Source: Polytrichum commune (taxonomy: Eukaryota; Streptophyta; Polytrichopsida; Polytrichales; Polytrichaceae). From it: a DNA stretch of 64,000 nucleotides. Shown piece after piece: positions 46,095 through 64,000 of the stretch; positions within the stretch are counted from its first letter, which is position 1; each line of letters begins with the position of its first letter. Made by a program: the position numbers and the translations under genes. Location: the NCBI GenBank assembly GCA_950295325.1, contig OX485806.1, positions 2,852,001 to 2,916,000 of the forward strand, given 5' to 3'. The notes below the pieces were generated by a model. The model worked only from the letters and a program-made list of their open reading frames with translations. It did no database searches and was not told the DNA's origin.

Positions 46095-46420
46095 AAGTAG
46101 CCAAACCAAATACACCTAACATTTTGATTTCTCAAGCATATCCTACCCACAAGAAAGAGGCCTCGGATCCGAGGCCTCTTTCCAAACCTCCTCCTCATGC
46201 TAGAACATACAAGAAATGGCCAAATGCAAAAACAAGTAGCCAACTCAAATATACATAACATTTTGATTTCTCAAGCATATCCTACCCACGAAAAAGAGGC
46301 CTCGGATCCGAGGCCTCTTTCCAAACCTCCTCCTCATGCTAGAACATACAAAAAATGGCCAAATGCAAAGACAAGTAGCTAACTCAAATATACATAACAT
46401 TTTGATTTTCAAGCATAAAA
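46095..46420. repeat. 139-bp tandem repeat carrying a 28-30 bp palindrome
   Basis: Segments such as TTTTGATTTCTCAAGCATAT and CCTCCTCCTCATGCTAGAAC recur at 139-bp spacing, with a third partial copy to about 46420. Each full copy contains a perfect 28-bp palindrome (46154-46181 and 46293-46320) whose half is AAAGAGGCCTCGGA. No coding role is visible. Confidence 0.85.
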
Positions 46421-46589
46421 CACTATATTCGTTAAATTGAGACTTTTTGGGCATTTTGAGACATTCACAGAAATAAGAACAAGGATAAATGGAACACATA
46501 TTGGTGAAAGTTGTAAGATGCGAACACTTTGAAGCGGGTGTTTGGACCAAGAACCCCATTAATAACTCATATTTGTGATGGTATAGGGT

Positions 46590-46895
46590 GGGCAATCGAA
46601 ACCTTAGACCAAATTGAAGGGGACATCTTAAAACATTCATATTAATGCACACAAAATATGAGAGCTTGTATGAATATGGTTTAGGTAGGGCAATCCAAAC
46701 GATAGATCTTATTGAAGGGAAAATCTTAAAACATTCCTATTAATGCACACAAAATATGAGAGCTTGTATGAATATGGTTTAGGTAGGGCACTCCAAACCA
46801 TAGATCTTATTGAAGGGGAAATCTTAAAACATTCGTATTAATGCACACAATAAGGCACTCCAAACCTTAGACCATATTGAAGGCAAAATCATGTG
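46590..46895. repeat. 98-bp tandem repeat, about three copies
   Basis: AAAACATTC starts at 46630, 46728 and 46826, with matching ATTAATGCACACAA, GCACTCCAAACC-like and ATTGAAGG blocks between, giving an exact 98-bp period. It lies downstream of the minus-strand multi-domain gene. Confidence 0.85.
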
Positions 46896-47034
46896 ACACT
46901 TATATTATTGCAAAAAAAAAAAACATACAAAGTATGGCATGTAAAATGCATAGCATGCTAACACCACACATCCATTGGATAGTGCGACCCAAAATCATAT
47001 TGCCTATGGTCCAAAACCCTACGCCTACTATGGC

Positions 47035-47352
47035 CTATCTAGCCTCGGAGACTGCCTCTATCTCTTTTGTTTTTTTTTCTTTTGCCTCTTTTGCTTTTGC
47101 CTCTTTTTCTTTTGCTGCGGCTTCTTTTGCTCGCATTGCTTCAACATTCCTGAAAATCTCCGCCCCGCGACTATAGCCATTCTTGGGGTGACTGCCATCA
47201 ATAACACATTTTGGATTCCGTCGGCCGCCCGAATTATACGACGAAGAATTCGAATACGATGAAGTGGACTGTCTTGCATTTCTGGTCATGGAGTAGAAAC
47301 ACTCCAACTCGACGGACATACTAGCCCGCATAGGTTTACGGGTGGGAGCAAC
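47035..47352 (-). CDS. Exon 6: C-terminal exon with charged coiled tail
   Basis: The acceptor GCGTTGCAG is followed by VAPTRKPMRASMSVELE and a Ser/Asn-rich segment. NPKCVIDGSHPKNGYSRG follows, then an Ala/Lys/Glu coiled coil (MRAKEAAAKEKEAKAKEAKE), and a TAG stop at 47035. It joins exon 5 in phase 0. The function is unknown. Confidence 0.45.
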   Translation of the reverse strand, partial: VAPTRKPMRASMSVELECFYSMTRNARQSTSSYSNSSSYNSGGRRNPKCVIDGSHPKNGYSRGAEIFRNVEAMRAKEAAAKEKEAKAKEAKEKKTKEIEAVSEAR

Positions 47353-47488
47353 CTGCAACGCGTGAATGCAAGAACACACGTGTTAGTTTAGGGAGGAAGA
47401 CCCAAACGTGTCACACGTTCATTTTTTAAGTGCGGGATGATTGTAATGCGCGGTTAACCATTTTTTTTGGGGGGGGGGGGGGGTTCAC

Positions 47489-47845
47489 CTTGTCACCGGG
47501 GGCGTTCCCGTCGGAGTTGGCGAGGAGGGGCAATGCGTCTCGCAAAGGAATAGGAAGGGTTCCACTCTTCGTTGGCCGAGCGTCCATCCGCAGCCGCCGT
47601 TGAGGTGTACTACTGCCGCCGGGCCGAGAGGGGGATGTCCGGACGCATTTGCGATTTATGCCCTTGAGCGGCGACGGGGACGCACATCGCCGGAAGATTT
47701 GCTTGGGTGGGGGGCTATCGACGACGCCGGCGTCAAGAGACTCCTTGGAGTAGTCAATGGTTGACGCGGCGTCGTAAACGGTCTCGTAGAAGAAGCTCCC
47801 CAAGTCTGACTCGCTGACGATGTCAATCAAGGGCTCCAAACGCTG
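47489..47845 (-). CDS. Exon 5 of the multi-domain gene
   Basis: Bounded by the acceptor TGCGCCAG and the donor GACAAG|GTGAAC; 357 nt, phase 0 at both ends. It encodes an acidic stretch (LEPLIDIVSESDLGSFFYETV) and then a basic Ser/Pro-rich region (ASPSPLKGINRKC, RTSPSRPGG). No domain recognised. A run of 15-16 G on the plus strand just beyond the donor lies in the next intron. Confidence 0.45.
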
Positions 47846-47944
47846 GCGCAAAAAAGGAAACGAAACAAAACCCAAGGGAGGAGGGTTTGATAGAGCGCGT
47901 GAAAATCAAGATACATATGAAGCATATATTACACAAAATGAACG

Positions 47945-48000
47945 AGCGCGCGCGCACGCACACACACACACACACACACATACACATACAAACACACGTA
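47945..48000. repeat. CA/GC microsatellite
   Basis: Alternating GCGCGCGCGCAC, then (CA)n to about 47982, then TACACATACA, located between exons 4 and 5. Alternating purine-pyrimidine runs of this kind can adopt Z-DNA. Confidence 0.9.
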
Positions 48001-48005
48001 GTGTC

Positions 48006-48817
48006 TCAAATGAGCTTGTTAAATTTTGCGTGAGATAACAACTCTCTGTACAAATGGTCTCGTGGATCCAAGTATCTCTCGCCTATGGGATTATTCATAA
48101 CAAAATTGTTTACGGGCAGTCCGCTTCCGCAGAGCGCCTGGAGGTATTTACCAAGGTCTAACAAAAATCGGTCCCGGACCTTCTCGACCGTCCACGTAGG
48201 GCAAACTATGAGGTTGGCCGTCGGGTTCAACATGTTCTTTGTGGCGTTGTCGTCCACCATGAGCGTGTTCTCGCGGGTGGGGCGGACGTCGTAGGGGACG
48301 CCTATCAAGGACGGACGCTGGTCCCAAAAATGGGCTTCAAGACCTTGAGATATTGGGGGGAAACGGGGTTGTTTGGTTTTTTGACGACTTTGCCGTCCTG
48401 TGTGTACAATATTCTACAAGCTTCCTGTGCTAGGACCATGCAGGGGGGCTCGATGCCCTTGAAGATGAACTCCACGACGGCATTGGTGTTCTCGGCCTTC
48501 ATGGAGCTCCACACGACCACCCACCATCATTGTTGGGTGATCTGGAGGAAGGTCCGAAGCCACGGGCGGAGGTGAACTAGCTTGCTCTTTATGAACGTGG
48601 GCGGCCCGTCGTAATTCGCGTCCTCGGGCTTGCAAAAGGGCACCGTGGGGGTCCTAGGGCAATGAACGCATTGGACGAGGACCCCGTTCAGGTCTAACAC
48701 CAGGAATCGTTTCTTTGGCCGTGGGGGCGGGGCGGGTAAAATCGGGGGCGCCGCCGCGCTGCCCTCTCCGCTCCTTGGAGAAGAGCGTCGGGGAGCCGCT
48801 ACGCTATGCTCCGAGCC
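48006..48817 (-). pseudogene. Exon 4: FCP1/NIF-like HAD phosphatase domain, broken
   Basis: After an Ala/Pro-rich lead (GSEHSVAAPRR...), KKRFLVLDLNGVLVQ is HAD motif I. FCP1-type phosphatases have DxDGT; the second Asp is Asn here, as in several plant FCP1-like proteins, which suggests weak or no catalysis. LVHLRPWLRTFL and VVWSSMKAENTNAVVEFIF follow (motif II region), then NTLMVDDNATKNMLNP (motif IV). A TGA at 48529-48527 separates FLQITQQ from WWVVVWSS, and one base is gained or lost near 48335, where VLKPIFG should continue as AHFWDQRPSL. Both lesions argue for a dead copy. Confidence 0.65.
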
Positions 48818-49295
48818 CTGCGGATACGATCGAGAGAAAACAGTGGGCGACTTATGTCATGCTATGTCCAAACGAAGCATTAAAAAAACGAGTGTTCTCG
48901 GTGCAAACACAAAACCATTTGATTCATTTTGGAGGGGGTGCAACAAGGGATACAAGAGAGGCAAGAGCATACAACATACATTCAAACACAGGATACAAGT
49001 ATATAGGAGTAAAAAATGGCGATTATATTGTATACAATGCTCTATGTACATCTTGATTGGGGGGAGCCGCGTTGAACGATGCGTTCAAACTAGCCTACTT
49101 CTACATCTAGCAAAAATTGAAGAGACGGGCCGCCGTGATGAAGACTTCGTCGCAAGCCGGGGGGTATGTGGACGAACGAATGGTCGGGGGGATGTGGCGA
49201 AGGGCGCGAGTGCCGGGGGGGGGGGGGGGCGACGTGTGCGTGAGTTTAGGGTAGCTAGGGGACACGACCAAGGCAAGAAGACAAAGACCCATGGA

Positions 49296-49317
49296 GTTTG
49301 GGTCGACCGACCCAAAC
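49296..49317. repeat. 22-bp palindrome, intron 3 copy
   Basis: Arms GTTTGGGTCG and CGACCCAAAC around AC. It begins about 20 nt downstream of the exon 3 donor (49338) on the transcribed strand. The arms are perfect. Confidence 0.9.
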
Positions 49318-49599
49318 TGAGTGGGGTCAGTGCATTACCTCGCCTTGGTCGCGCCTTGACGACGTGGATGCCGTCACCGCGTGCGCTGCCCCACCTCTGT
49401 CACCACCGCCTCTGACGACGACTTCAGCCTCAACCTGCTCATGCAAAGGCTGACTGTTAGGCCTTTGTCCCAACCCAACCTCCGCATGCGCATCATGCAT
49501 TGGTTCATCGACTGGGTTAGGAGTAGAGGTATCACCAGGCCCTTGCGGGCCTTCAACATCTAACATGGGCTCGTCCACCGGGGTCTGATTGGGGACAAG

Positions 49600-49690
49600 G
49601 TTTGGGTCGGCCGACCCAAACCCTGCTGCTTGGCGAGCGTCGCTCTGGGACGCTGCAACGTCGGCACTGTTTGGGTCGGACGACCCAAAC
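49600..49690. repeat. Two exonic copies of the 22-bp palindrome
   Basis: Copies at 49600-49621 (centre GC, fully palindromic) and 49669-49690 (centre GA) lie inside exon 3. Both are read in the same register as F-G-S-x-D-P-N (FGSADPN and FGSSDPN). They are separated by Ala/Gln-rich coding sequence. Confidence 0.9.
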
Positions 49691-50433
49691 ATGTGGGGGT
49701 TGTCCCGCTGGTGGTGTGGGGGCGAGAGGATGGGAGGCCGGAGCGGCGGGGGCGCCAACGAGCTGGACGCTCCGGGGACGCGCCAAAGGTTGGGGTCGTC
49801 CACCTGCTGGACGGGCGCGTAAGGACGGGCGTGCGGCTGCAGCAACTGTGCGAAGCTGAAGGAATGCTGCAGCATGGGCCGCGGGGCGATATCCTGTGGC
49901 GGGAAGCCTGCGGGCAAGTGCGGGAATGAACTCGGGGGAGCCATCACCAATCCCTGCGCCAGCATGCCCTGGATCACTTGCGTTATGAGCTCCGCTTGGG
50001 ACGGAGGTTGGGCCATCGCCCTTTGCCGCTCCTGCTCCAACAGGAGAGCCCTCAACTCCGCGACTTTGTTGCGGACTGAGGGCTCCTCGGCGGCAGCCTT
50101 CTCCAATCGGACGCGCTGCTCCTCGTCCCGGAGCATTTTGGTGTTGGCCTCTTCCACGGTGAGGACCTCCGGTTTCACCCTCACCATCCCGGCGAACGCT
50201 GTGGGGGAGACAGGATCCGACCTCAGCCTCTTCGCGAGCTCCATGTCGTCCTCGTCTTCGGAGCTTATGGCGATCGTCTCCTCCACCGCATAGTCCCCGT
50301 ACAGCTTCTTGCCCTTCAGCATTCGCCGCTCCCTGAAGGTGGACGTCGCGTCCCTCGAATACATGTCCTTCGCGTCGGCCACCGTGAGGACGGGCACTAG
50401 CTTGCTCTGCGGCGTGGCAGCCCGCATGGCCTT

Positions 50434-50616
50434 CTTCCACTGAGGGGCCTCGGATTCTTGAGTGAATCCTGTTGCCCCTTCCTCCACCTCTCCTTCCACT
50501 GAGGGGCCTCGGATTCTTGAGTGAATCCTGTTGCCCCTTCCTCCACCTCTCCTTCCACTGAGGGGCCTCGGATTCTTGAGTGAATCCTGTTGCCCCTTCC
50601 TCCACCTCTCCTTCCA
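50434..50616. repeat. 59-bp direct tandem repeat, three copies
   Basis: GAGGGGCCTCGGATTCTTGA starts at 50442, 50501 and 50560. The copies are essentially identical, so the expansion is recent or an assembly artefact. The length is not divisible by three and lies in coding sequence. Confidence 0.95.
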
Positions 50617-51008
50617 CTTTCTCCTCCTCCTCCTCCTCTTCTTCTTCTTCCTCCTCCGCAACCTCGCCACCTGCCTTCACGGACGGATTGCTCGGATGCA
50701 ATCCAATGAGGGGTTCTGGCAATTGAACGGGGGCCCGCATGGCGAATTCGCCTGGATTGATTCGCCTCGCCATATCCAACGGGTTCTCGCCCCCGTCGAC
50801 GATCTCTTCGACATAGGATCCGGGTATCCAGTCGAGGATGTCCATTCTCTTCGCCAGTGCCTTCTGGGTCCTGTAGAATTGAACATCGGCATCCTCCACA
50901 TAGGAGTAGATGTTCAACCCAGACATCTGCACAATCCAAATCAATAGTATTAGTATCACAAATGAAGAATAAGCAAAAATAACACCCAAAACAAAACAAG
51001 AATACTTA

Positions 51009-51030
51009 GTTTGGGTCGCTCGACCCAAAC
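51009..51030. repeat. 22-bp palindrome, intron 2 copy
   Basis: Perfect arms around CT, lying in the short intron between 51063 and 50927. Confidence 0.9.
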
Positions 51031-51063
51031 CAAGCATATAGATCCACGAGGTTAGATTCTTAC

Positions 51064-52395
51064 CATTGCTGCAAAAACCAGTTTGGAGCCCCCGAAGACG
51101 TTGAAGATGAAGTCCCCCCTCTTCGTGAGGGTCCTCATCATCCGCAGGTAAAAATCCATCCGCAGTTCATCCGCGGGGTAGTTGGCGTACTTCGCCTCGT
51201 CGTACAAGCTCCTGCTGGTGCCCAACCCTTCTGGGACTTGGAAAAGCTTTTCCATCCGGGCTATAGGATGGTTTGGCACCTTCAGCAGCTCAGCTTTGTA
51301 CACGAAGTACAAGCACAGCACACAGACTATCTTCGTCTTTTTGTTTTTCAATGAGTTGTACGCCCCCTCCGCCGGTGCAGCAACGTAATGAGATTTTGAG
51401 ACGGCGTACTCTGGTTGCAATTTACGCACGATCTCGTACACCTGCTCCGCCCTCCTGTCCTCGACAATCCACAACCAGACGTCGACCTCCCTGAATTTGG
51501 GGTTGGCGTAGTCCACGAACTTGGTGAAGAACGGCTCATAAAACGGGGTGCTCATTGTCCCCTCGAATGAGGCTCCAGGAATGTTTCTGAAGTCTATCAT
51601 TCCGAAGGGGAAGCGGTCCCCGGCTGCAGTCCTGATCGCCATCCTGGCATCAGAGCCCGGCCAACCTTGGATCTTTAGAGGCACGAGGGAGACCAAGTTG
51701 AAGTGAGCTTCGCCCTCGAACCTGACGATCTTCTTCTCCTTTATAAAGTTGGAGAAGGCACGCGCGGAGTGTTCGGGAAGCGCCCGGTTCCTCCCCCCCT
51801 TCACGAGCTTGGACTTGAGGAAGTCGTCTCCTGCCTCCCTCATGAGTGCCGCCATGGACGCACTGGTGAACTTGTACTCGGCTTTGAATGCCCTCCAGTG
51901 CGCCTCGTCAACCTCTCCGTCCACGATGAGCTTCTTCTCGGGCACCAGCTTGTGCAGCTCTTGGACGATGGTCGTCTTCTTCTTCCTGTTCTCCGTCCAT
52001 TCCTTCAAGGTGTAGCATGAAGGGACGAAGATCTTTGGTTTCGTGAAGACGATCTTCGGGTGAACCCAACATCTCTTCGCCGTCGGCTCCACGTGGAGGA
52101 TGTGGGACGCCGCCTTTCCCACCTCTGTCTCCGAGAGACCTTGAAGAGCTTTGAAGAACTCCCTCACCAGTGGCTTCATTTGCTTAAAGCGCGCAGTCTG
52201 GTTGTACAGAATGCCGGTGTCGGGATTAATGAGGTCTCCCGTCTCGTATTTTTCGAAGACAGTCTTCCATTTTGTCCACACGGAGTCGGACGCTGTGATC
52301 AAGTAGATTTCTCCTCTTAGCTCGTTATATTTTTTTTGCTTGTGGCTAGCGTTGTCAATAGAGAAGAATTTATTGATCATCTGGTATTTGAAGTC
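51064..52395 (-). CDS. Exon 2: methylase-like Rossmann domain, N part
   Basis: An intact 444-codon exon. Its last 20 codons (KRGDFIFNVFGGSKLVFAAM) join exon 3 (MSGLNIYSYVEDADVQFY) without a break. This is the motif I glycine loop and following acidic strand of beta-class N6/N4 DNA methylases, which end GD-x-V-x-D-x-F-x-G-S-G. Here the first acidic residue is Asn (FNVFGGS), and no DPPY is visible: the expected area reads FGMIDFRNIP. Catalytic methylation is therefore doubtful. The front half (HWRAFKAEYKFTSASMAALM) is unfamiliar. Confidence 0.45.
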
Positions 52396-52454
52396 CTGTA
52401 CATGAAGTCAAGAACATATGTTAGAGAACACATCATGAAAAAAATGGAACAGCA

Positions 52455-52590
52455 GTTTGGGTCGATCGACCCAAACTTTAAATCTGATGAAGACTATAAG
52501 ACAATCCAAGAGTTTGGGTCGATCGACCCAATCTACAAAACTTGCGAAGAAAATAAAACAATACAAGAGTTTGGGTCGATCGACCCAAAC
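52455..52590. repeat. Three palindromes in a 57-bp tandem, intron 1
   Basis: Copies start at 52455, 52512 and 52569, exactly 57 bp apart, each with centre AT. The intervening 35 bp are A-rich and related to each other (GACAATCCAAGA, AACAATACAAGA). The copy nearest the exon 1 donor begins 8 nt inside the intron. The middle copy has one arm changed (CCCAATC). Confidence 0.9.
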
Positions 52591-52598
52591 TTATTCAC

Positions 52599-53924
52599 CT
52601 CCCATTTTGGGTTCTTGTCTTTTGCATTCTCCCTTTCCTTGGGAGGCCTGCCATAAAACTCCCACACATCCCTCGAGGCCATTATATTCCTAATCCAGGA
52701 TGCCTGATACGCCCTCTTTTTATTTCCTATGTTGAAAAACCTGGAGATGTCACTGAGGACGGTCTCGTTGTCCGACCAAACCACCAGTGCCTTCCATACC
52801 TTCAGCTTCTCCTTTTGGTTGTTGGGGTCGTCCCATTCAATCATCAACTGGATTTTTTTGGAGGCCTCGACACTGTGCTGGCCGTCAATCAGCCAGAAAT
52901 CTCCTTTAGAAATCGCTGGCCACATATCAGCCGTAGGCATTCTTTTTAGCCCCTGGGGCATCACGACAATTGTCTGCATGTCGTCCTTGAACTGCCCGCC
53001 CAAGATTTGAGCGACCATCCAGTCGACATAGGCATCCTCCTTGGCTCGGACACACTTTTCAGGTGGCGCAAGGTGGCATTGTGCAATGTTCACCTCGAAC
53101 TTGAAGTCCCTGCCCATGAAGAAGCAATGGAGGCATTTCGTCTCAAAATTGTCGTTGATTTTTTGAATTTCCCCAGCATCAACCTCTTGGCCAGGCTTGG
53201 GCATCCGCAACTCTGGCGAAACTGGCTCGGTGGTCATGACTAATGACTCTCTTGCCCTTTTCGACGGGGTCGTCTGCCGGCTTCCTGAAGGCGTTGGCGT
53301 CTCGCTGTCAGCCGGAGTCGAGGTAGTGCTCGTTCTTCTAGAATCTGCCGGGACCGCCCGCTGAATCCTCACAGATTGGGGTCTAGAGGAACCTGCTCCT
53401 TCTTCTGTCTTGGCCTTCCACCTGACAGGTTGTTGCGTTTTTGGTTTGCTTTGCAACGCCTTATTAAAAACCGTGATCGCTTGTTTCAGTTTTGTGAACA
53501 TGCTAGCGACCTTGGTGTTCGATACAGTGCCATCTATGAAGATGGTCTCCGGTTTTATGGTCTCCGGGTCAACGCACGTCTCCTTGGCGTATAGGGGGTC
53601 GAAAGCCTCGGAGAATTGGTGCATGAACATATGCACGTTCTGCACGGCGGAGTTCTCTAGAATAACGTCCACGTGCTCCCCGAGAACTTGGACGGAAGCA
53701 ACCTCCCATCCCGTCAGCGTTGCCCAGGTGTGTTGCTCGTGGGTCCCCACTTTCAGCACGAACAAGAGCTTGTACTGGGAGGCTTTCACAACCTGAACGG
53801 ACCACGCAAGAACGATCCCATCCTTTGGGACGTATGAGTCGTCCTGTGGAGTTTCGTACCCCTCCCAAAGGTGGTCTGGGGCGAGCATGAACCACCTCTC
53901 TCCAGGTCTCTTTTTAGTGGCCAT
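52599..53924 (-). CDS. Exon 1: ParB/DGQHR-like domain
   Basis: An intact exon of 442 codons that starts with MATKKRPGERWF immediately after the acceptor CTTACAG. Residues about 190-235 are a Ser/Thr/Pro-rich linker (SRRTSTTSTPADSETPTPSG). Residues about 280-400 hold DAYVDWMVAQIL, IVVMPQG, DFWLIDGQHSVEASKKIQ and LSDISRFFNIGNKKRAYQ. The IDGQHxxxA box followed by an F-x-x-x-N helix is the pattern of ParB/sulfiredoxin-fold and DGQHR-type (DndB-like) domains. The usual Arg after His is Ser here. Such domains bind DNA or nucleotides in bacteria; the role in plants is unknown. The exon ends GAG|GTGAAT. Confidence 0.5.
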
Positions 53925-53950
53925 CTGTAAGTCCAGAAACAAAATTGTTA

Positions 53951-54057
53951 GTTTAGGTCAATCGACCCAAAGTTTTTCAACTTGGATGTAACATAAGTGC
54001 GAATTGAAGGGTGCTCTACTGGCCATCATGAATAGGTTTGGGTCGACCGACCCAAAC
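53951..54057. repeat. Two upstream palindrome copies
   Basis: A degenerate copy lies at 53951-53972 (GTTTAGGTCA and TCGACCCAAAG) inside the presumed 5' leader intron, 27 nt before the ATG. A copy with perfect arms lies at 54036-54057 (centre AC). Confidence 0.8.
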
Positions 54058-54315
54058 CCAAGCCTCGAATAGCCTAATCGTATAAGAATTATTGGTAGAG
54101 TTAGGGTCTTAAGAATATGAATATATTGAATATTGTGTAGTGGTCAAATTATCCAACAGGAGAGCAATTTGTGGTGACCTTCTAGAGCCACGCTGGACGT
54201 ATGTGGACATGCCAACAAATATCAGACGATTTCAAATTATAGCCATTTGAATATAATTTCTTGTTGATGGTGGGAAGGATGTTTATTTTGGGATATTGGA
54301 TTTGTAGGTTGCAGA

Positions 54316-54522
54316 GTTTGGGTCGAGCGACACAAACCAGCTGCAGAGTTTGGGTCGAGCGACCCAAACCAGCTGCAGAGTTTGGATCGAGCGACCCAAA
54401 CCAGCTGCAGAGTTTGGGTCGAGCGACCCAAACCAACTGCAGGTCTTGGGTCGAGCGATCCCAACCAGCTGCAGAGTTTGGGTCGAGCGACCCAAACCAG
54501 CTGTAGGTTTTGGGTCGAATGA
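54316..54522. repeat. Palindrome array, 32-bp period, cut by the LTR
   Basis: Units start at 54316, 54348, 54380, 54412, about 54444, 54476 and 54508. Each is the palindrome with centre AG followed by the 10-bp linker CAGCTGCAGA or a close variant. The seventh unit breaks off after TTTTGGGTCGAATGA, where the LTR begins at 54523. Mutations in single units (CACAAAC, TTTGGATC, GATCCCAA) are mostly in one arm. Confidence 0.95.
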
Positions 54523-56335
54523 TGTGAGCCCAAAAGGGTGCCCACATTTAGTCTTAGACCTTTGAAACGTTAGTTGATGCACTTTGAAGTAGCATGTTAC
54601 TTCACAAAAATATAAAAAGAGTGAAATGTTAGTCTTAGAAGTACCATGTTGTAAGAGGCTAGGATGTGAGTTGTTATTGTGTTTTTACCTTCGGAAGGAT
54701 TTGAGTGAATGAGGATAGGTAAGGAGAACTTGGATTGAGTAGTTAGTGAGTAGGCTAGTACAAATGGATGGAGACAACCAAAGTGACTCAAGAGGCAAGT
54801 GCATTCGAATTGGGATGAATGGAGGATCACATGGAGCGCACAAGTGGACCACCTCATCATGGCCACTTAATGGGGAAGGCCCAAGGAAGAATGCAAGGTG
54901 GAGAATAAGCAAATTCTCAAAGCACCAATCAAATCACGAGTTAAGCATCGTGGTTTGAATTAAGTGGTGAGCGACGATTTGGGAAAGTAAGGGGAGAAAG
55001 TTATGGCGGCGGAAAGCGAAGGAGGCTAAGTTTGGGTTGAAGCATCCCAAGTTTGGTAAAGTGTGGTAGGTAGAAAGCCAAGGCTAGTTAAATGTTCGAA
55101 TTAGGATCCTTGTTGATCATTTGAGGGAGGAAGGCTTAGAAGATAGGATTGGCGCCTACTAAGTAGGAGGAAATCTCAAGGGCTTATCGTGAGCCTTGAG
55201 GGTGCTCACCCCCTCAAGCTTACTATATAATCCCTCATTCTTCCCTCACTCATCCTCTCTTTCCTTTGTGCTCCAAGGCACCCCACGAGTTATAAGTGTG
55301 GGTGTGGAAAGCCATATTGGAGCACATGTGTGTGCTTAGTTTTTAGTTTGAGAGCCAAGGCTTGTTAGCCTTGAAGAGGGCTTGACCTCTTGGTAGAATT
55401 AGTGTTGACGTGAAGGATTTTAAAGTTAATTCATGATTCCAATTTGTGGTACTTAAAGTTCATGTTTTGAATACACGTGGTTGCAAGTTCCATGTTTAAG
55501 AGTTGAGCACTTGATGTTGTGATGAGTGCAAAAATATACTTGTGTGGATTAGTTAGTCTTAGTGAAGTTAGGAAATTCTCTCTCCCCCTCTCCTCTCTAG
55601 GATTTTAGGATTTTAGGATTAGAGAAGAATTGTGTGATTAGAAAGGGGTTGTTAGTAGAATTAGGGAAATTAGGTAGGAAGATTAGTTAAGGGCTTGAAT
55701 AATTAGTGAGGTAGTTGGGGATTACAACTACAAAGTTGTGGGTTCATGAAGGAGCTGGGTTTATGAAGGAGCTGGGTTTGTTTAGTTAGAAAGTAAAGAG
55801 CTGGGTTTATGAAGGACCTGGGTTTGTTTAGTTAGAAGCTAAGGAGCTGGGTTCATGAAGGAGCTGGGTTTATGAAGGAACTGGGTTTGTTTAGTTAGAA
55901 GCTAAGGAGCTGGGTTCATGAAGGAGCTAGGTTTATGTAATTAGAAAGTAAAGAGATGGGTTCATGAAGGAGCTTAGTAGATAGCCTACCTAATTAGCTC
56001 ATAGACAAGTAGTTAGTTACATTATGCTAGTTAGTGTTATGTGTGGCTTTCACAAGTAAATGTATTTGAGATTGACTATAGAGAATAGTGTTTTTTTTAA
56101 CACTTGCATCCTCTCTTTAAAAATAAACCACGTGCACAACTTAATGGAGAATGTGGAGCACTCTCGCGATGGCAAGACAAAGGAAGCAAAGACCAAAGTT
56201 AAATCCAAGACCACTTGAAGGGTGAACCTTGCACTATGGACTCATCCAAGTCCAAATCCAATACCGCGGAGGAATGTGAGCCCAAACCCACTACTCGGAC
56301 TACGGACGCTTAAGGGTGGGGGGTTTGGCCTCACA
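54523..56335 (+). mobile_element. 5' LTR of the Ty3/gypsy element
   Basis: It begins TGTGAGCCC and ends GGCCTCACA, giving 6-bp terminal inverted repeats TGTGAG/CTCACA; length 1813 bp. The visible 455 bp of the 3' LTR (63546-64000) match it with three differences, all transitions. TATATAA at 55224-55230 is a plausible pol II TATA box. An internal array at 55735-55985 repeats GAGCTGGGTTTATGAAGG with longer blocks containing TTTAGTTAGAA. Confidence 0.93.
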
Positions 56336-56339
56336 TAAT

Positions 56340-56358
56340 TGGTGCGTCCGCCGGGAGC
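56340..56358 (+). other. Primer binding site
   Basis: TGGTGCGTCCGCCGGGAGC starts four bases after the LTR end. It has the TGG start and CCGGG-rich form expected of a site complementary to a tRNA 3' end. The priming tRNA is not certain. Confidence 0.65.
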
Positions 56359-57244
56359 GAAGCGGAAGGTAGTTACAAGACTTGGAGGCGACTAGGAGAC
56401 TTGGAGGCAACTAGGAAAAATTGGAGACACAAACTTGAGAGAAGGGAAGGAGCACCCGAAACTCGGTAAGTATTCTCTCTTTGGGTTACATTTGAATTCA
56501 TTGTATTTCAACTATTCCTTGGAATGAATTGCATTGTCAATTACGCAAATTCATTTTTGAGGAAGGAGCGCGGCGAAGGTACGTCCTCAACCTTTTTGGG
56601 GATTTGCTAAGAACTTAAAAGGAACCTATAACCGAGTAGCTCATTAAAACATTAGAGGGTAAATTCACCTTAGGACATTGAACTTTGACACTCACCTCGG
56701 GGTGAGTCTCAAAGTTTTGGGAGTTGTCATTTCATGCTCTAGATTAAATTAATATTTCACAAAGTTTATGGTGTTGTTACATTGAGTCACGATTGAGGGG
56801 AGTGCTAACTCACAGGGGGATGCGATTGCTCAAGGTATGTTTATTTCTTCAAAGTGAACTCATTAACTAATTAAGGAATGCCTTTTGTACTCGTGATTGT
56901 TGTTATCCGTTGTAGAGGGTAATTCCCAAATTGTGGATGGTGTGAGAAGTTGAAGGGTGAAGCCTCGACTTTTAACATAATCTACTCGGAAGGTCACCCC
57001 CTCACAATCGGTATTGTGGTGAGTGTTAATTTGCGGGAAGGTGCGGAAGTGATGCTCCGACTTAACCAAAAAATTAACATGAACATGCCTATCCCCTATT
57101 GGGATTCTTTCACCTAAGTGGGCTTGCAGGTTCTTTTCCTCACCTCCTAAAAAAATTATAACCACACCAAGACAAGTGAAAATATTAAGAGGGGAATTGC
57201 TAGGATTATGTGTGGTCAAGTGAGGGTCGATCGATTCTTATGGA

Positions 57245-60200
57245 ATGCAAGGTAGGACTCGCTCACAAAAACCAAGTTTGATAGTAGGACTAGAGAAATC
57301 TACTCGAAAGAGGCGGTCCTCTAAAATCAGTGATAGATTAGAACAAGATAATGTTAGAATAGAGAGTTGTTTGAACGTCGAACCTAGGACTAGGTCAATT
57401 CTAGACACCTTAGAACTTGGAGCTCAACTTGAAGAGGAGATCACTCCCTCCAAATTGAGTGGTGAAACTTCTTCGGAAAATTACACACTTAGAGAAGAAT
57501 TCCCGGTAGAAGTTGATAGGGGATTGTTGAATAGTTCACCGGTCACCATGGCCGAGGAACGGGGGATGGATCCACCACCCATACCCCCAATTCCGCCCAT
57601 ACCTCCTATACCTCCAATAGACCCATTGGTTAGGCCAAGAGGCCTACCAATTGTGGTTCCACAAAATTTAGCGGCGATGGATATGCCATCTCATCTCCCT
57701 AAATTTTATGGGACCAAGGATGAGGACCCCTCTCGGCACATGGAACGGTATATCGAACGGTTGGCTAGCTTCCTCATAACCGACCCGGGTTATTGGTTAG
57801 TGTGGTTTCCTACCACTCTAGAGGGGGAAGCCTATGAATGGTATCGGGATCATGCCGAGGGACATTTTAGGGGATGGGAACAATTACAAAGGGAGTTTCT
57901 TAACGAATTTAGGCCGGAAGTGGGTCAAAGTACCGCATTAAGGGCATTGTCGTCATTGAAGCAAGGAAGGGAGGAAGAAATTTCGGCTTACATTAGGAGG
58001 TTTGATTTAGTGTGCACTAGATTTGTGGGTACCATGCTCAACGACGACACGCTAAAGCAATTTTTCATTCAAGGGTTTTTTAAGTCCGGAACTATTAGGG
58101 GTGTTCTAGAAAGGAATCCCTTGACCTTGGCGGATGCCAAGCGTGCGGCTAGAGATATTGAAAACTTGGATAAAGATCACGAAAGGCTATGGAGAAGGGA
58201 GGATGAATTGATCCCACAATTCATCCCCATACGCCCTAGGGTGGTAGCGGTAGAACCCGCTAAGTATGAGAACCAAATTCCATATGCCATTGTGGACACC
58301 GGTCCCCGACCTTTAGCGGTTAGGGAACCGGCACCTCTTTTGGCACTACCGGCCCCTAGAACGGATCCACACTTGGAGGAGGTTGAGAGAAGACTAGGTG
58401 CTAGCCAACTAGGATTCCAAGAGGCTATGATAAAACAAATGCAAAGCCTCACGGATCAAATGTCATTAATGATCCGGAGTCAACAACCGGGGCCTCCACC
58501 CCCGGTTGAGTCGGGTAGGCATTCTTCCGGATTATGGTGTGTCCAATGTGGCCAACCGGGCCACACGCGTCAATTTTGTAGAAGTGGACAAAACCGTGAC
58601 CAAAGAGGAAACGGTAACCCACCTCAACAAAATCAACGAGGTCAAGCGCCACCTCACTATGGAAATGGAAGCAATAGAGGACCACAACCTATAGGGCAAG
58701 GTGGCCAAAATTTAGAGAAGAAGGAATTTCATCCCTTTTGTGGAAGGTGGCACGCTCAAGGACAATGTTGGTCCGAAGGTCAAGAGTTTAATTGTAGCAA
58801 TTGTGGAGGAAGTCATCCCTCGGATACGTGTCGCCAACCGGACAAAATAATTAATGTCCCTTACCCGGTGGCTAATCCACAACAACAAGCAAGGGATAAT
58901 ATGCGAGGTGCTAGGCCACAAGGAGTACCGGCCAATGAACTTAGGCCACCTAACTTATACTATGACCATAGTAATGCTAGGCAAACTTTTCATCCACCGG
59001 CGGGCTTGCAAACTACAACCGGTTACATTCCAATACAAAATAGACAAGGAGTTCCACCTAATGGTAGTAACGGGAGACAAGCGCCTCCAACGGATCCGGG
59101 ACCATCTAACTCCCAAGATGTTAGGTTCATGGATGGAGTGTTGGAGGCCACATGTGATGACATGCTTCCTCTCCCAACGAGAATTGGAGAGGAGCAAAGT
59201 CAATGGCCTCCTCACACCAATGCTATTACATATGAGTTAGTGAAGGGTAAGGGTGTGGTTGAAGAAGCACCTGCACTAGCGGTAACTACTAGGGCTAGGA
59301 GAGGGGATGCCCCGTTGGAGGTAGGAATAGGAGAGCAAGGAAATTACTCTTCGGATGAAGAGATTAATCTCTCCGAGTTGGATAGGGTAGCTAGAAGAGC
59401 TACTAAGGATGTGGAGAGGGAAAATATAATTTTACAAGATAGGGAGAGGACTAATGCGGTACATGACTTGGATAATAGCGATGTGGGTGAATGGGAAGGA
59501 CCGGGGGTTCCCGTAGACGAATTCGACGTAGTGGGTAATTCTAAGGTGGAAAGATCTACCGGGTACGACTTGTGGGCGGACCTTAGTACACTCAAGGCGG
59601 ATATTACTTTCGGCCAACTATTGGAAATTTCACCCACGGCAAGGAAAACATTAAAGGAGGGAATGCCGGTACACAAGAGGATGAGGAAGGTGAAAGCTAA
59701 AATAGCCGCTAGGATCCAATCACAAGGTGGAAGACACGTGAAAGCTATAGAAATAGAAGTTGTTATAGTAGATAAGGTGGTTCCTAATGTGCTAGTCGAC
59801 GGAGGGAGTAGTCTAAATATACTACCGGAGGATACTATGAAAAAATTGGGACTTGGACTCACGGGGCCTTCACCTTTGGTCATAAATATGGCAAATCAAA
59901 GTTCGACTACGCCTTTGGGGATGATCAAGGATTGTAGAATGACTACGGGAGGTGAGGAGTACTTGGTCACCTTCCATGTCATTAAAATGCACTCCAACAA
60001 GGACACCTTCCCCATTTTGCTAGGTAGGCCTTGGTTGCGGATGGCGAATGCTATGGTCAATTGGGGTGGACCTAAACCATCCATCACTTATGGTCCGGAG
60101 GGTAATAGGGTCATAGTGTCCATTGGTTCATTAGAAGGATGGATGAAGAAGGAGATGTATTTGCCATTGGAGAAGGAAATTGATGACTTAAACGAGAATG

Positions 60201-63200
60201 AGATTGGCAAGGCATTGGTGGGAGTCGTCCATCCCGAAGGTCAAAGGGTTGTTATAGATTCGGGCTCGGGAAGTCTAGGTCCTAATTTTTACAATTATGG
60301 GGATAATGGGGATTATGCCCAATGGCTAAGGGAGTACCCCGAGTCCGAGGTTGATGTAATGGTTACATTTCACCAAGTAGGCTTAGGGAGTGAATTTCCT
60401 AGTGTTAGTTTAGGAGAGGGCTCATTGTTGGAGCCATGTGAGGTGCTCACCGAGGAAGAGTGGGTTAGCGGTGGGTTAACACCTTGGGTAGATGACGTGG
60501 AAGAGGGTGAGGTTAGTTTAATTCATGTAGATGGGACTCAAGAGGAGGATGTGATTATTGAGTCATCGAAATTGGAGGAGCCTTTACATTTCAAGACCAC
60601 GTCTACGGGGATAGTTGTAGGTCAAGATGTGAAAGATTACCCCAATGTGCCTTCCGATTGGTATCGGAACAAAGAGGAACAAGCACATGTGTCGGAAGCG
60701 GATTGGCGGTACGTGGATGTGAAATTAAAGAATGGAAAAACCCGACAAATGAAGATGGGCTCCAAATTGGGGGAGAAAGAGGTTAGGGAGTATAGCAATT
60801 TGGTGGATGAGTTTAGTGATACTTTTGCATGGTCCTACGATGAGCTTAAGGGAATTCCTAGGGAAATGGTAGAGCACCGGATTCCTTTAATTCCGGGGGC
60901 GAGGCCAATTAGACAAAAGGAGAGGAGGATGAATCCTCAATTGCAATTGTTGGTGAAAGCGGAATTGGAAAGGTTATTGAAGGCCGGGTTTATCAAGCCG
61001 GTGGAAATCACGGATTGGGTTTCTCCTATGGTCTTAGTAAAGAAAAAAAATGGGAAATTAAGGGTTTGTGTCGACTATAGGAAATTGAATTCGTGCACAC
61101 AAAAGGATCACTTCCCCTTACCTTTTATCACCTTGTTGCTTGAGGAGGTTGGAGGTCATTCGCGATATACCTTTATGGATGGGTATGCGGGTTATAATCA
61201 AATTTCCATAGCCCTCCAAGATATCCATAAAACGGCTTTTACTACACCTTGGGGTACTTTTGTGTGGGTAGTGATGCCATTTGGGTTATGTAATGCCCCG
61301 GCTACTTTCCAACGATTAGTAATGTATATCTTCACCGACTTGTTGTTCAAATCCATGACCGTCTTTGTGGACGATTTTAGCACACAAAGTAATGTGGATG
61401 ATCACCTACATTGTGTTAGGGAGGCATTGGTTAGGTGTAGGAAGATGAGGTTAGCATTGAACCCGGATAAGACATTTTTGGGAGTGAATAAGGGAGTGTT
61501 GTTGGGTTATGTTGTTAGTGAGAAAGGTAGAGAACCCGATCCGGATAAGATTGCGGCCATAAGCGACTTGGCAACTCCAACCAATTCCAAGGGGATCTCT
61601 AAGTTGTTAGGACATGTGGGATGGTACCGGGAACTTATTCCTAATTTTTCAAAGATAGCGGTGCCCATTACCCATTTGCTCAAAAAGGATGTCAAATTCG
61701 AGTGGACGGATGCTTGTCAAAAAGCCTTTGAGGAATTGCGGGATAGGTTGAGCACCTATCCGGTGTTGATACCACCCAATTGGGGTAAACCTTTTCACGT
61801 CTATTGTGATGCTAGTAATGTGGCAATAGGGAGTGCGCTTTGTCAAGCAACGGGAGAAAAAGAGAAGGATCAACCTATAGCTTATGCGAGTAAGCAATTG
61901 ACCCCCGCCGAAAGAAACTACTCTACAACGGAGAGGGAGTGCCTAGCCATGGTGTTTTCCGTTAAAAAGTTTAGGCATTACCTCATGTGCAACCCGGTTG
62001 TATTTTTTGTTGACCACATGGCTATCAAGTATCTAATTAACAAGGCGGAGTTAAGTGGTAGGTTAGCTAGGTGGGTTTTGTTATTAGAAGAATTCGACTA
62101 CACGGTGGAATATAAACCGGGTCGTATGCATTTACAAGCGGACCACTTGTCTAGGTTGTCGGAGGAGATAGGAAAAAATCCGGTAAATGATATGTTAGTA
62201 GATGATAGCCTCTTTGTGGTCACTTCTACACCGGAGTGGTATGCGGGCATAGTGGAATTTCTAACAACCCACAAGTTGCCCAAAGAGTGGACAAAAGAAG
62301 AGAGAAGGAAGGTGAGGGTAAATAGTAGGCAATTTGTTGTAGTGGGCCATAGGTTGTTTAGAAGGGGGTCCGATGGTATTTTACGACGATGCGTGTCAAA
62401 AACGGAGGTTGAAGCGATTTTAATCGCTTGCCACGATAGCGCTTGCGGCGGTCACTTCTCGGGTCAACTCACCGGGCAAAAAATACTTAGAGCGGGCTAC
62501 TTTTGGCCTACACTATTTAAGGACGCCCATGACTATGTAAGGAAATGCGACGCTTGCCAACGGTATGCCCGAGACGACCTTAGAATGGAGATGCCTTTAC
62601 ATGTATCATTACCCTTAATTCCTTTCGAAAAATGGGGCATCGACTATGTGGGTGAGGTCCATCCCCAATCTTCAAAAGGAATGAAATATATTGTGGTGGC
62701 AACCGAGTACCTCACCAAATGGGCGGAAGCCAAAGCGGTGAAGACCGACACGGCGGAACACGCGGCAACATTTATGTACGAAAACATAATTTCGCGGTTC
62801 GGGGTGCCGAAGATCCTAGTAAGCGATAGGGGTACTCACTTTTTGAATGACTTGATTCGAGAGATGACAGAGAAATTTAAAATTGATCACCGGAAGACTA
62901 CTCCCTACCACCCACAAACCAATGGACAAACGGAAAGGGTTAACGGAATTTTGGTGAGTATACTACGCAAGACGGTTATAGACTCGAAGCGGGATTGGGA
63001 TACGAAACTAACGGCGGCACTTTGGGCATACCGTACAACCTATAAGGTAACTACGCGTGCTACACCATTTTCCTTAGTCTATGGTCTTGAAGCGACACTA
63101 CCAATCGAATATGAAGTCGAGTCACTTAGGGTGGCCGTGAGTACGAGACTTACCGAAAGTCAATCCTTACGAAATCGACTAACCGATTTGGAAGCACTTG

Positions 63201-63484
63201 ACGAAGGGAGGAGAATGGCGGCTCAACATATTGAGGCAATCCAAAGAAGGAGAAAGATTACTTTCGACAAACGACATAAGAGAAGGGCCCTAACACCGGG
63301 AATGATGGTCATGATTCAAGACGCACGAAAGCTTGAATTTCCGGCGAAATTCAATGCGGTATGGTTAGGACCTTACCTTGTCTATGAGGTCTTTCCTAAT
63401 AATTCAATTCAATTGGAAACGTTGAATGGTGAGCTCTTTCCTACCCGTACATCGGGAAGTAGATGTAAGGAGTACCGAGCTTGA
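57245..63484 (+). CDS. Ty3/gypsy Gag-Pol polyprotein, intact
   Basis: A single 2079-codon frame with no stop or shift. Order: Gag (residues about 150-320, LEGEAYEWYRDH), a CCHC knuckle CVQCGQPGHTRQFC at about 432, a second Cys/His cluster CSNCGGSHPSDTC at about 517, an aspartic protease with LVDGGSSLNIL at about 852, reverse transcriptase (about 1210-1480, FVDDF at about 1374), RNase H (HVYCDASNVAIGSALC at about 1518), then integrase with HHCC (HDSACGGHFSG to CDACQRY, about 1730-1770) and the DDE core (WGIDYVGEV, SDRGTHFLND, NGQTERVNG). RT before integrase is the Ty3/gypsy order. It ends with a GPYLV module and no chromodomain, so it is non-chromoviral, Tat/Athila-like in the broad sense. The protease has DGG where DSG or DTG is usual. 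It should be competent to move if expressed. Confidence 0.95.
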   Translation: MQGRTRSQKPSLIVGLEKSTRKRRSSKISDRLEQDNVRIESCLNVEPRTRSILDTLELGAQLEEEITPSKLSGETSSENYTLREEFPVEVDRGLLNSSPVTMAEERGMDPPPIPPIPPIPPIPPIDPLVRPRGLPIVVPQNLAAMDMPSHLPKFYGTKDEDPSRHMERYIERLASFLITDPGYWLVWFPTTLEGEAYEWYRDHAEGHFRGWEQLQREFLNEFRPEVGQSTALRALSSLKQGREEEISAYIRRFDLVCTRFVGTMLNDDTLKQFFIQGFFKSGTIRGVLERNPLTLADAKRAARDIENLDKDHERLWRREDELIPQFIPIRPRVVAVEPAKYENQIPYAIVDTGPRPLAVREPAPLLALPAPRTDPHLEEVERRLGASQLGFQEAMIKQMQSLTDQMSLMIRSQQPGPPPPVESGRHSSGLWCVQCGQPGHTRQFCRSGQNRDQRGNGNPPQQNQRGQAPPHYGNGSNRGPQPIGQGGQNLEKKEFHPFCGRWHAQGQCWSEGQEFNCSNCGGSHPSDTCRQPDKIINVPYPVANPQQQARDNMRGARPQGVPANELRPPNLYYDHSNARQTFHPPAGLQTTTGYIPIQNRQGVPPNGSNGRQAPPTDPGPSNSQDVRFMDGVLEATCDDMLPLPTRIGEEQSQWPPHTNAITYELVKGKGVVEEAPALAVTTRARRGDAPLEVGIGEQGNYSSDEEINLSELDRVARRATKDVERENIILQDRERTNAVHDLDNSDVGEWEGPGVPVDEFDVVGNSKVERSTGYDLWADLSTLKADITFGQLLEISPTARKTLKEGMPVHKRMRKVKAKIAARIQSQGGRHVKAIEIEVVIVDKVVPNVLVDGGSSLNILPEDTMKKLGLGLTGPSPLVINMANQSSTTPLGMIKDCRMTTGGEEYLVTFHVIKMHSNKDTFPILLGRPWLRMANAMVNWGGPKPSITYGPEGNRVIVSIGSLEGWMKKEMYLPLEKEIDDLNENEIGKALVGVVHPEGQRVVIDSGSGSLGPNFYNYGDNGDYAQWLREYPESEVDVMVTFHQVGLGSEFPSVSLGEGSLLEPCEVLTEEEWVSGGLTPWVDDVEEGEVSLIHVDGTQEEDVIIESSKLEEPLHFKTTSTGIVVGQDVKDYPNVPSDWYRNKEEQAHVSEADWRYVDVKLKNGKTRQMKMGSKLGEKEVREYSNLVDEFSDTFAWSYDELKGIPREMVEHRIPLIPGARPIRQKERRMNPQLQLLVKAELERLLKAGFIKPVEITDWVSPMVLVKKKNGKLRVCVDYRKLNSCTQKDHFPLPFITLLLEEVGGHSRYTFMDGYAGYNQISIALQDIHKTAFTTPWGTFVWVVMPFGLCNAPATFQRLVMYIFTDLLFKSMTVFVDDFSTQSNVDDHLHCVREALVRCRKMRLALNPDKTFLGVNKGVLLGYVVSEKGREPDPDKIAAISDLATPTNSKGISKLLGHVGWYRELIPNFSKIAVPITHLLKKDVKFEWTDACQKAFEELRDRLSTYPVLIPPNWGKPFHVYCDASNVAIGSALCQATGEKEKDQPIAYASKQLTPAERNYSTTERECLAMVFSVKKFRHYLMCNPVVFFVDHMAIKYLINKAELSGRLARWVLLLEEFDYTVEYKPGRMHLQADHLSRLSEEIGKNPVNDMLVDDSLFVVTSTPEWYAGIVEFLTTHKLPKEWTKEERRKVRVNSRQFVVVGHRLFRRGSDGILRRCVSKTEVEAILIACHDSACGGHFSGQLTGQKILRAGYFWPTLFKDAHDYVRKCDACQRYARDDLRMEMPLHVSLPLIPFEKWGIDYVGEVHPQSSKGMKYIVVATEYLTKWAEAKAVKTDTAEHAATFMYENIISRFGVPKILVSDRGTHFLNDLIREMTEKFKIDHRKTTPYHPQTNGQTERVNGILVSILRKTVIDSKRDWDTKLTAALWAYRTTYKVTTRATPFSLVYGLEATLPIEYEVESLRVAVSTRLTESQSLRNRLTDLEALDEGRRMAAQHIEAIQRRRKITFDKRHKRRALTPGMMVMIQDARKLEFPAKFNAVWLGPYLVYEVFPNNSIQLETLNGELFPTRTSGSRCKEYRA

Positions 63485-63545
63485 CTAGGCAACTTACCCT
63501 TGGAGCAAGAGATGTTTGGATTCATCCCCCGATGGTCGCCAATTA

Positions 63546-64000
63546 TGTGAGCCCAAAAGGGTGCCCACATTTAGTCTTAGACCCTTGAAACGTTAGTTGA
63601 TGCACTTTGAAGTAGCATGTTACTTCACAAAAATATAAAAAGAGTGAAATGTTGGTCTTAGAAGTACCATGTTGTAAGAGGCTAGGATGTGAGTTGTTAT
63701 TGTGTTTTTACCTTCGGAAGGATTTGAGTGAATGAGGATAGGTAAGGAGAACTTGGATTGAGTAGTTAGTGAGTAGGCTAGTACAAATGGATGGAGACAA
63801 CCAAAGTGACTCAAGAGGCAAGTGCATTCGAATTGGGATGAATGGAGGATCACATGGAGCGCACAAGTGGACCACCTCATCATGGCCACTTAATGGGGAA
63901 GGCCCAAGGAAGAATGCAAGGTGGAGGATAAGCAAATTCTCAAAGCACCAATCAAATCACGAGTTAAGCATCGTGGTTTGAATTAAGTGGTGAGCGACGA
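63546..64000 (+). mobile_element. 3' LTR, truncated by the window edge
   Basis: It begins TGTGAGCCC and is identical to 54523-54977 except for three transitions, in AGACCCTTG, TGTTGGTC and GTGGAGGAT. The remaining 1.36 kb and the right flank lie outside the window, so the target duplication cannot be checked. Confidence 0.95.

Follow-up and report, generated by a model that had tools for sequence, protein, structure and literature searches.

Mutually exclusive palindrome sets at matching positions in two subfamilies of a moss DNA transposon encoding a predicted ParB-fold protein

What is a ParB-like gene doing in a moss genome amid copies of one palindrome that lie in its introns, in one of its exons and upstream of it? 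The question is raised by a stretch of 64,000 nucleotides of Polytrichum commune DNA (hereafter the window; contig C4 of the 407.8-Mb assembly), for which a first-pass annotation had described such a palindrome, confined to the locus of the gene, and had considered whether the encoded protein recognizes it. Here, we find that the locus belongs to a high-copy DNA transposon dispersed through the genome, and that two subfamilies of this transposon carry different palindromes at matching positions of the gene; we regard these palindromes as candidate recognition sites of the element's own protein.

The palindrome of the window (first type, GTTTGGGTCG-NN-CGACCCAAAC, 22 bp) has 14 matches with at most three mismatches at 49296-54497 and none elsewhere in the 64 kb, and the mean over 100 dinucleotide shuffles was 0.00; a 15th, more degenerate copy is found at 54442, within an array with a period of 32 bp. 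The concentration at the ParB-like locus described earlier was thus confirmed, as was the placement: three copies lie in intron 1, one in intron 2, one in intron 3 and two in exon 3, while 5′ of the ATG there is a degenerate copy at -48, another copy at -133 and then the upstream array (Table 1). The copy at -48, in the leader intron, precedes a CAG acceptor.

A single host gene with a private set of sites is ruled out, as the locus is one copy of the dispersed transposon. When compared with the genome, the exon-1 protein gave 109 scored matches, corresponding to 95 places (14 of them split in two) on C1-C7, with an identity of 89-98% among the matches listed, the window itself apart. Initial candidate counts for three queries (1081, 1098 and 1068) are close enough to suggest a cap or shared entries, and were not taken as copy numbers. 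Four other copies (A-D) were recognized by blastn comparison of the window with the stretches around eight palindrome clusters on C1. The element has target duplications of 4 bp (AAGT/AAGT in copy A and TTAT/TTAT in copy C), copy C measures ~17 kb, and copy A reaches 18 kb including an inserted long terminal repeat (LTR). On the strand opposite to the ParB-like gene, it carries a DUF7869 transposase-like open reading frame (ORF) matching PF25273 at 7e-38 in A and 1.1e-42 in B; in element A the former is on the minus and the latter on the plus strand. The palindromes do go with a gene family, at matching positions, so this part of the proposed self-associated site set stands, but their home is a multicopy transposon rather than a single host locus.

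The second site set was predicted from proteins before it was seen in DNA. Relatives of the protein from metagenomes (14 proteins, then 50 including some of the same) are often read through into intron 1, and among the 28 with at least 12 residues in the intron, 22 have a peptide that fits a first-type pattern (V[WS]V.RPK, FGS.DPN, LGR.TQT or a close variant), with a partial one in P0023 and P0029. Four relatives at 33-37% identity behave differently: three fit a second-type pattern, and P0054 (RTNVHK) is one residue off. The peptides YERTFV and YERSFV in P0052 and P0054 are the translation of TACGAACG-NN-CGTTCGTA, and in a tree of the relatives the second-type clade has a support of 100/100. 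The genome of P. commune contains this second subfamily, up to 95% identical to P0054 and with 91 scored matches, and the prediction was borne out in genomic DNA: copy I (C1:2459001-2479000) carries the second palindrome, TTTACGAACG-NN-CGTTCGTAAA, in the leader, introns 1 and 2 and exon 3, as does copy J on C3. Both copies have a related inverted repeat at one end (4 of 28 positions differ), the other ends not having been found. The exact 18-bp core of the second palindrome occurs 4,680 times genome-wide (control, 0), and its clusters on C1 coincide with three listed exons of the P0054 type (at 2274768, 2464746 and 2534806). A close copy of P0050 was not found in the genome, the best match being 45-46% identical. 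A first-type element (L030 4714-10000, C1:2473714-2479000) lies ~1.7 kb past the end of the second-type element I, so that the two families can insert close together.

Across the six elements measured, the two palindromes are mutually exclusive. With up to three mismatches allowed, first-type sites number 40 in A, 30 in B, 36 in C and 14 in the window, and these four lack the second type; I (29 sites) and J (19 sites) carry the second type and lack the first. Relative to the ATG, the leader site is at -49, -49, -48, -48, -50 and -50, and the intron 1 site at +1334, +1334, +1335, +1334, +1301 and +1301, in A, B, C, the window, I and J, respectively; the first site of intron 1 begins 5-9 nt past the exon end across elements. 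All six also have sites in intron 2 and in, or downstream of, exon 3, at somewhat different places, and exons 1 and 2 contain none in any of them at the same threshold. Arrays are also found 4-6 kb 5′ of the ATG in A, B, C and I; in A, the distance to the beginning of the transposase-like ORF is ~100 bp. Element D is outside this count, its start not having been found by the pattern used.

Sequence comparison of the elements indicates that the sites are preserved while their surroundings drift. Between A and C, the arms are identical at 60/60 positions in intron 1 and 59/60 in intron 2, compared to 68/127 and 62/132 in the rest of these introns and 77% and 79% in exons 1 and 2. Between A and the window, the corresponding figures are 59/60 and 20/20 for the arms, 97/143 and 90/117 for the rest of the introns, and 87% and 90% for the exons. 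Outside the arms, the introns of A have diverged from those of C and D to 46-56%, and in the 140 bp 5′ of the ATG identity is 17-19 of 20 positions for the arms against 43-54% for the remainder. Pairs as close as C-D and I-J are uninformative, all of their parts being 96-100% alike. The palindrome arms are better conserved than the exons, with the limit that arm identity is biased upward by the choice of sites with at most four mismatches, which leaves the number and place of sites unbiased.

Beyond the window, the first palindrome is anything but confined: 13,295 matches with at most two mismatches were found genome-wide, and none of the reversed control. The eight C1 clusters were taken from 100 listed places between 0.44 and 3.97 Mb, which are a sample rather than a census of C1, further sites being present at C1:2124727-2125765 and from C1:2473714; the latter mark a ninth cluster, which is another first-type copy. 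An even scatter unrelated to the gene family, which the first-pass annotation had named as the outcome that would speak against it, was not seen in this part of C1, with four of the eight clusters in copies of the ParB-like transposon and four in a different transposon type.

Nor are the two central bases of the first palindrome free to vary, as had been assumed; they are constrained. An unbiased random centre would be pyrimidine-purine in a quarter of the copies, yet such a centre is found in just 38 perfect-arm copies genome-wide, always as CA or TG and never as TA or CG, and none of the 216 first-type copies of the local sample (at most four mismatches) has one. In the second palindrome, 25 of 51 copies have a pyrimidine-purine centre, and the commonest centres are CA, CT and CG. 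We compared the 600 bp around 20 of the 38 copies: one array lies in a copy of the ParB-like transposon, and the other 19 represent one near-identical kind with 38/73-bp spacing that does not match the compared elements after masking of the palindromes. The comparison also included 60 random stretches of the window from outside the element, of which three matched an element body, none of these being of A type. The copies with a pyrimidine-purine centre failed as an unbiased genome-wide sample. Arrays of the near-identical kind are present on each of the seven large contigs (L041, L054 and 17 further loci), with an example near C1:76,825,000.

The gene itself is on the minus strand of the window, and its exon limits were drawn from reading frames and GT-AG borders, not from transcripts. 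A ParB-like domain, already suspected, is upheld by structure prediction, in which residues ~274-404 of exon 1 adopt the fold of the ParB N-terminal domain. The characteristic motif is DGQHS, not DGQHR, in 11 of 11 aligned rows, and presumably occupies the position of the GERR-type motif of ParB. Sequence searches contribute little: exon 1 matched no Pfam family up to an E-value of 1 and a single NCBIfam row at chance level, a search of PDB sequences returned nothing relevant, for elements A and I the protein spliced from exons 2-3 matched no PHROGs family up to an E-value of 10, and in viral contigs seven stretches matched a pattern, with no relatives among them. Open homologues of the NIF/FCP1-like region in elements A and I match PF03031 at 4.5e-15 and 2.9e-16. 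The window copy of the gene is damaged, with a stop and a frame shift in the NIF/FCP1-like region and a frame shift in exon 3, where a 59-bp unit present three times (tandem 50431-50618) shifts the frame; element A lacks the extra units. Directly past the palindrome array, the transposon is interrupted by a Ty3/gypsy insertion. Insertions of retroelements or other repeats beside or inside palindrome arrays were seen at three places (window 54523, F at L012 near 7724, and I at L029 189-1176), which hints that the arrays may attract insertions.

Table 1. Coordinates of palindromes, exons and repeats in the window.
Feature	Coordinates	Strand	Basis or remarks
Palindrome, intron 3	49296..49317		Pattern scan
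Palindrome, exon 3, codes FGSADPN	49600..49621		Pattern scan and translation
Palindrome, exon 3, codes FGSSDPN	49669..49690		Pattern scan and translation
Palindrome, intron 2	51009..51030		Pattern scan
Three palindromes, intron 1, spacing 57 bp	52455..52590		Donor-nearest begins 8 nt past exon end
Degenerate palindrome, leader intron	53951..53972		48 bp 5′ of ATG
Palindrome at -133	54036..54057		Pattern scan
Six-palindrome array, period 32 bp	54316..54497		Pattern scan and tandem search
Exon 1, 442 amino acids	52599..53924	-	N-terminal beta domain (~30-160), predicted ParB N-domain fold (~274-404), motif WLIDGQHS
Exon 2, 444 amino acids	51064..52395	-	By eye like circularly permuted N4/N6 DNA methyltransferase, motifs degenerate
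Exon 3, length 1588	49339..50926	-	Low-complexity, probably coiled-coil by eye; frame broken in window copy
Exon 4 region, NIF/FCP1-like phosphatase fold	47950..48822	-	Limits approximate; stop and frame shift in window copy
Terminal inverted repeat, 28 bp, AACACTATATTCGTTAAATTGAGACTTT, one transposon end	46419..46446	+	Same sequence at each end in copies A and C
Transposon part within window	46419..54522		blastn against four other copies; other end beyond 64000
Ty3/gypsy retrotransposon	54523..64000	+	First LTR from 54523, polyprotein 57245-63484, second LTR from 63546; separate from the finding

What, then, are the palindromes for? We judge it probable, by analogy with VANC, the anti-silencer encoded by VANDAL transposons, that the ParB-like protein binds the palindromes of its own element and keeps the element active against host silencing. 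The palindromes in the leader, the introns, exon 3 and the upstream arrays would be the recognition sites of the ParB-fold protein, which would load onto the numerous sites within its element, each subunit of a probable dimer taking one half-site. Such loading would keep the two divergent genes of the element open or active, as VANC does in VANDALs, and in the sister lineage a change in the specificity of the protein would have been accompanied by a change of the whole site set.

Several observations weigh against this proposal. The whole-model Foldseek alignment to ParB is loose (root-mean-square deviation 8.4, TM 0.45 by target), and no helix-turn-helix was located in the model, which has low confidence past residue 404 and in exon 2 (pLDDT, the predicted local distance difference test, 42.9 for exon 2). 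Several first-type elements have a degenerate leader copy at -48 to -50, with arms at 17-19/20, and the identity of the arms is subject to the upward bias mentioned above. The 19 of 20 sampled arrays with CA or TG centres could not be assigned to any host element compared. A third palindrome, GTTTCGG[TG]CG-NN-CG[AC]CCGAAAC, guessed from the read-through peptides VSVARPK, FGRPTET and VSGDRPK, has no match in the genome; the relatives behind this guess may come from other species. Finally, the first-type site is shared with an unrelated transposon, and so is not exclusive to the element encoding the ParB-like protein.

This other transposon, to which clusters E, F, G and H belong by blastn, has the terminal sequence GCTATCTTATGAGCG and, in G and H, target duplications of ~10 bp. 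Its set of ORFs includes a DGNHR protein and a last exon resembling a DNA methyltransferase (phrog_67, 6.4e-5, in G). G and H have arrays of the first-type 22-mer 5′ of the DGNHR exon, and G also has one array between transposase ORFs. Because these arrays share the 22-mer but differ in their flanks from those of the ParB-like element, the 22-mer itself is the unit that is kept. Homology between the DGNHR protein and the ParB-like protein was considered but not supported, no profile similarity being detectable (hhalign probability 0.4). In G (L019-L020, C1:3438314-3449586) and H (L021-L022, C1:3487657-3498223), a SWIM-like zinc motif can also be discerned by eye in the transposase region. Either this transposon uses the protein of the first element in trans, or the site is recognized by a factor of the host.

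The first of these two options belongs to a more far-reaching version of our proposal, namely a ParB-parS-like system in a eukaryotic transposon, where the protein would load, spread or bridge and keep the element free of silencing, the NIF/FCP1-like domain would act on transcription, the sister lineages would have switched tens of sites in concert, and the unrelated transposon would use one of the two protein-site pairs in trans. We put this version forward tentatively, and would sooner doubt it in its entirety than accept it. The second option, that the palindromes are sites of a host activator or silencing factor acquired by several transposon families while the ParB-like protein does something else, would account for the same 22-mer within different flanks in two transposon types of one genome, and arrays near gene starts and in introns would fit an enhancer. 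However, the type of palindrome follows the subfamily of the element's ParB-like gene in six of six elements and in the read-through relatives, and the explanation would require a pair of host factors to have switched at matching sites; we consider it unlikely.

Similarly, the palindromes might act as hairpins in the pre-mRNA, for example, in the control of splicing. A 9-bp stem with a 4-nt loop can be drawn by eye, and the copies that closely follow the 5′ splice site, like those immediately ahead of the leader acceptor, keep their distance across subfamilies. Against this, the arrays 4-6 kb upstream of the ATG, which may or may not be transcribed, would be hard to place in such a scheme, the protein has a predicted ParB fold, and an Rfam scan of 46400-54600 brought no family to threshold. 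Moreover, among the 216 first-type copies 135 positions show one-sided changes and one a symmetric change, which reveals no compensation; among the 51 second-type copies the numbers are 50 and two, many changes in both sets being inherited together. We therefore give RNA hairpins little credence. A selfish palindromic repeat, spreading locally without a function for the element, would agree with the varied tandem periods (32, 38/73, 57, 78 and 85-92 bp) and with the one near-identical array family in 19 of 20 samples, but is very improbable considering that positions match between subfamilies although the palindromes differ, that the arms are kept amid introns diverged as far as described above, and that arrays with different flanks have the 22-mer itself as their kept unit.

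How does the proposed self-recognition relate to known systems? VANDALs are Mutator-like, whereas the element described here, with its DUF7869 ORF, 28-bp inverted repeat and 4-bp duplication, is not. According to the available excerpts of two reports, VANC of Arabidopsis acts through a short motif that recurs in arrays over the introns, the intergenic stretches and the upstream parts of copies of its own transposon; the motif differs from one related family to the next and has coevolved with the protein, and loss of methylation has been demonstrated (PMC5735166, PMC10398659). The present element likewise has short motif arrays in its non-coding parts that differ between families, with some sites in exon 3 in addition; its sites, however, are 22-bp palindromes, in contrast to the 9-base non-palindromic YAGTATTAY of VANC21, and its protein has a predicted ParB N-domain fold, which the excerpts do not mention for VANC (PMC5735166, PMC10398659).

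Similar in protein kind is Sola1-1_Ec32 of Ectocarpus, a giant transposon in which a ParB-methyltransferase accessory gene runs opposite to the transposase gene, and for which self-binding and modification were proposed (PMC12477816, in the part available); green and red algal cases are cited there as well. The position of the accessory gene is the same here; the differences are the NIF/FCP1-like exon region, a methyltransferase that is a by-eye candidate, and the two site sets, none being named in that part of the source. DndB, a bacterial autoregulator of the dnd operon with a DGQHR motif, is described in the excerpted text as binding two palindromic sites, TACG-N10-CGTA, 5′ of its own gene (PMC4507180). 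The second palindrome contains exactly this pattern, which may be chance, while the first does not, and with DGQHS in place of DGQHR the resemblance seen is one of motif and sites. VirB is a ParB-family protein that counters silencing, as the available text has it (PMC10653881). With ParB/parS and VirB, our element shares palindromic sites and, by prediction, the N-domain fold, but it is a eukaryotic transposon with many sites per copy and nothing that suggests partition.

The novelty initially expected for a self-associated site set of a eukaryotic ParB-like protein has to be divided accordingly: the kind of protein was already known, self-binding transposon proteins of the ParB-methyltransferase type having been proposed (PMC12477816, in the excerpt available), and what is added here are the site sets and their concerted switch. 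Among the titles and abstracts listed in searches of one literature collection, none names either. Since the two diverged proteins now have candidate sites that match in position and differ in sequence, specificity becomes testable by swaps, and the two subfamilies offer two candidate orthogonal protein-site pairs. If our proposal is correct, this moss transposon would represent a second, structurally different solution to VANC-type self-recognition, built on a bacterial partition fold.

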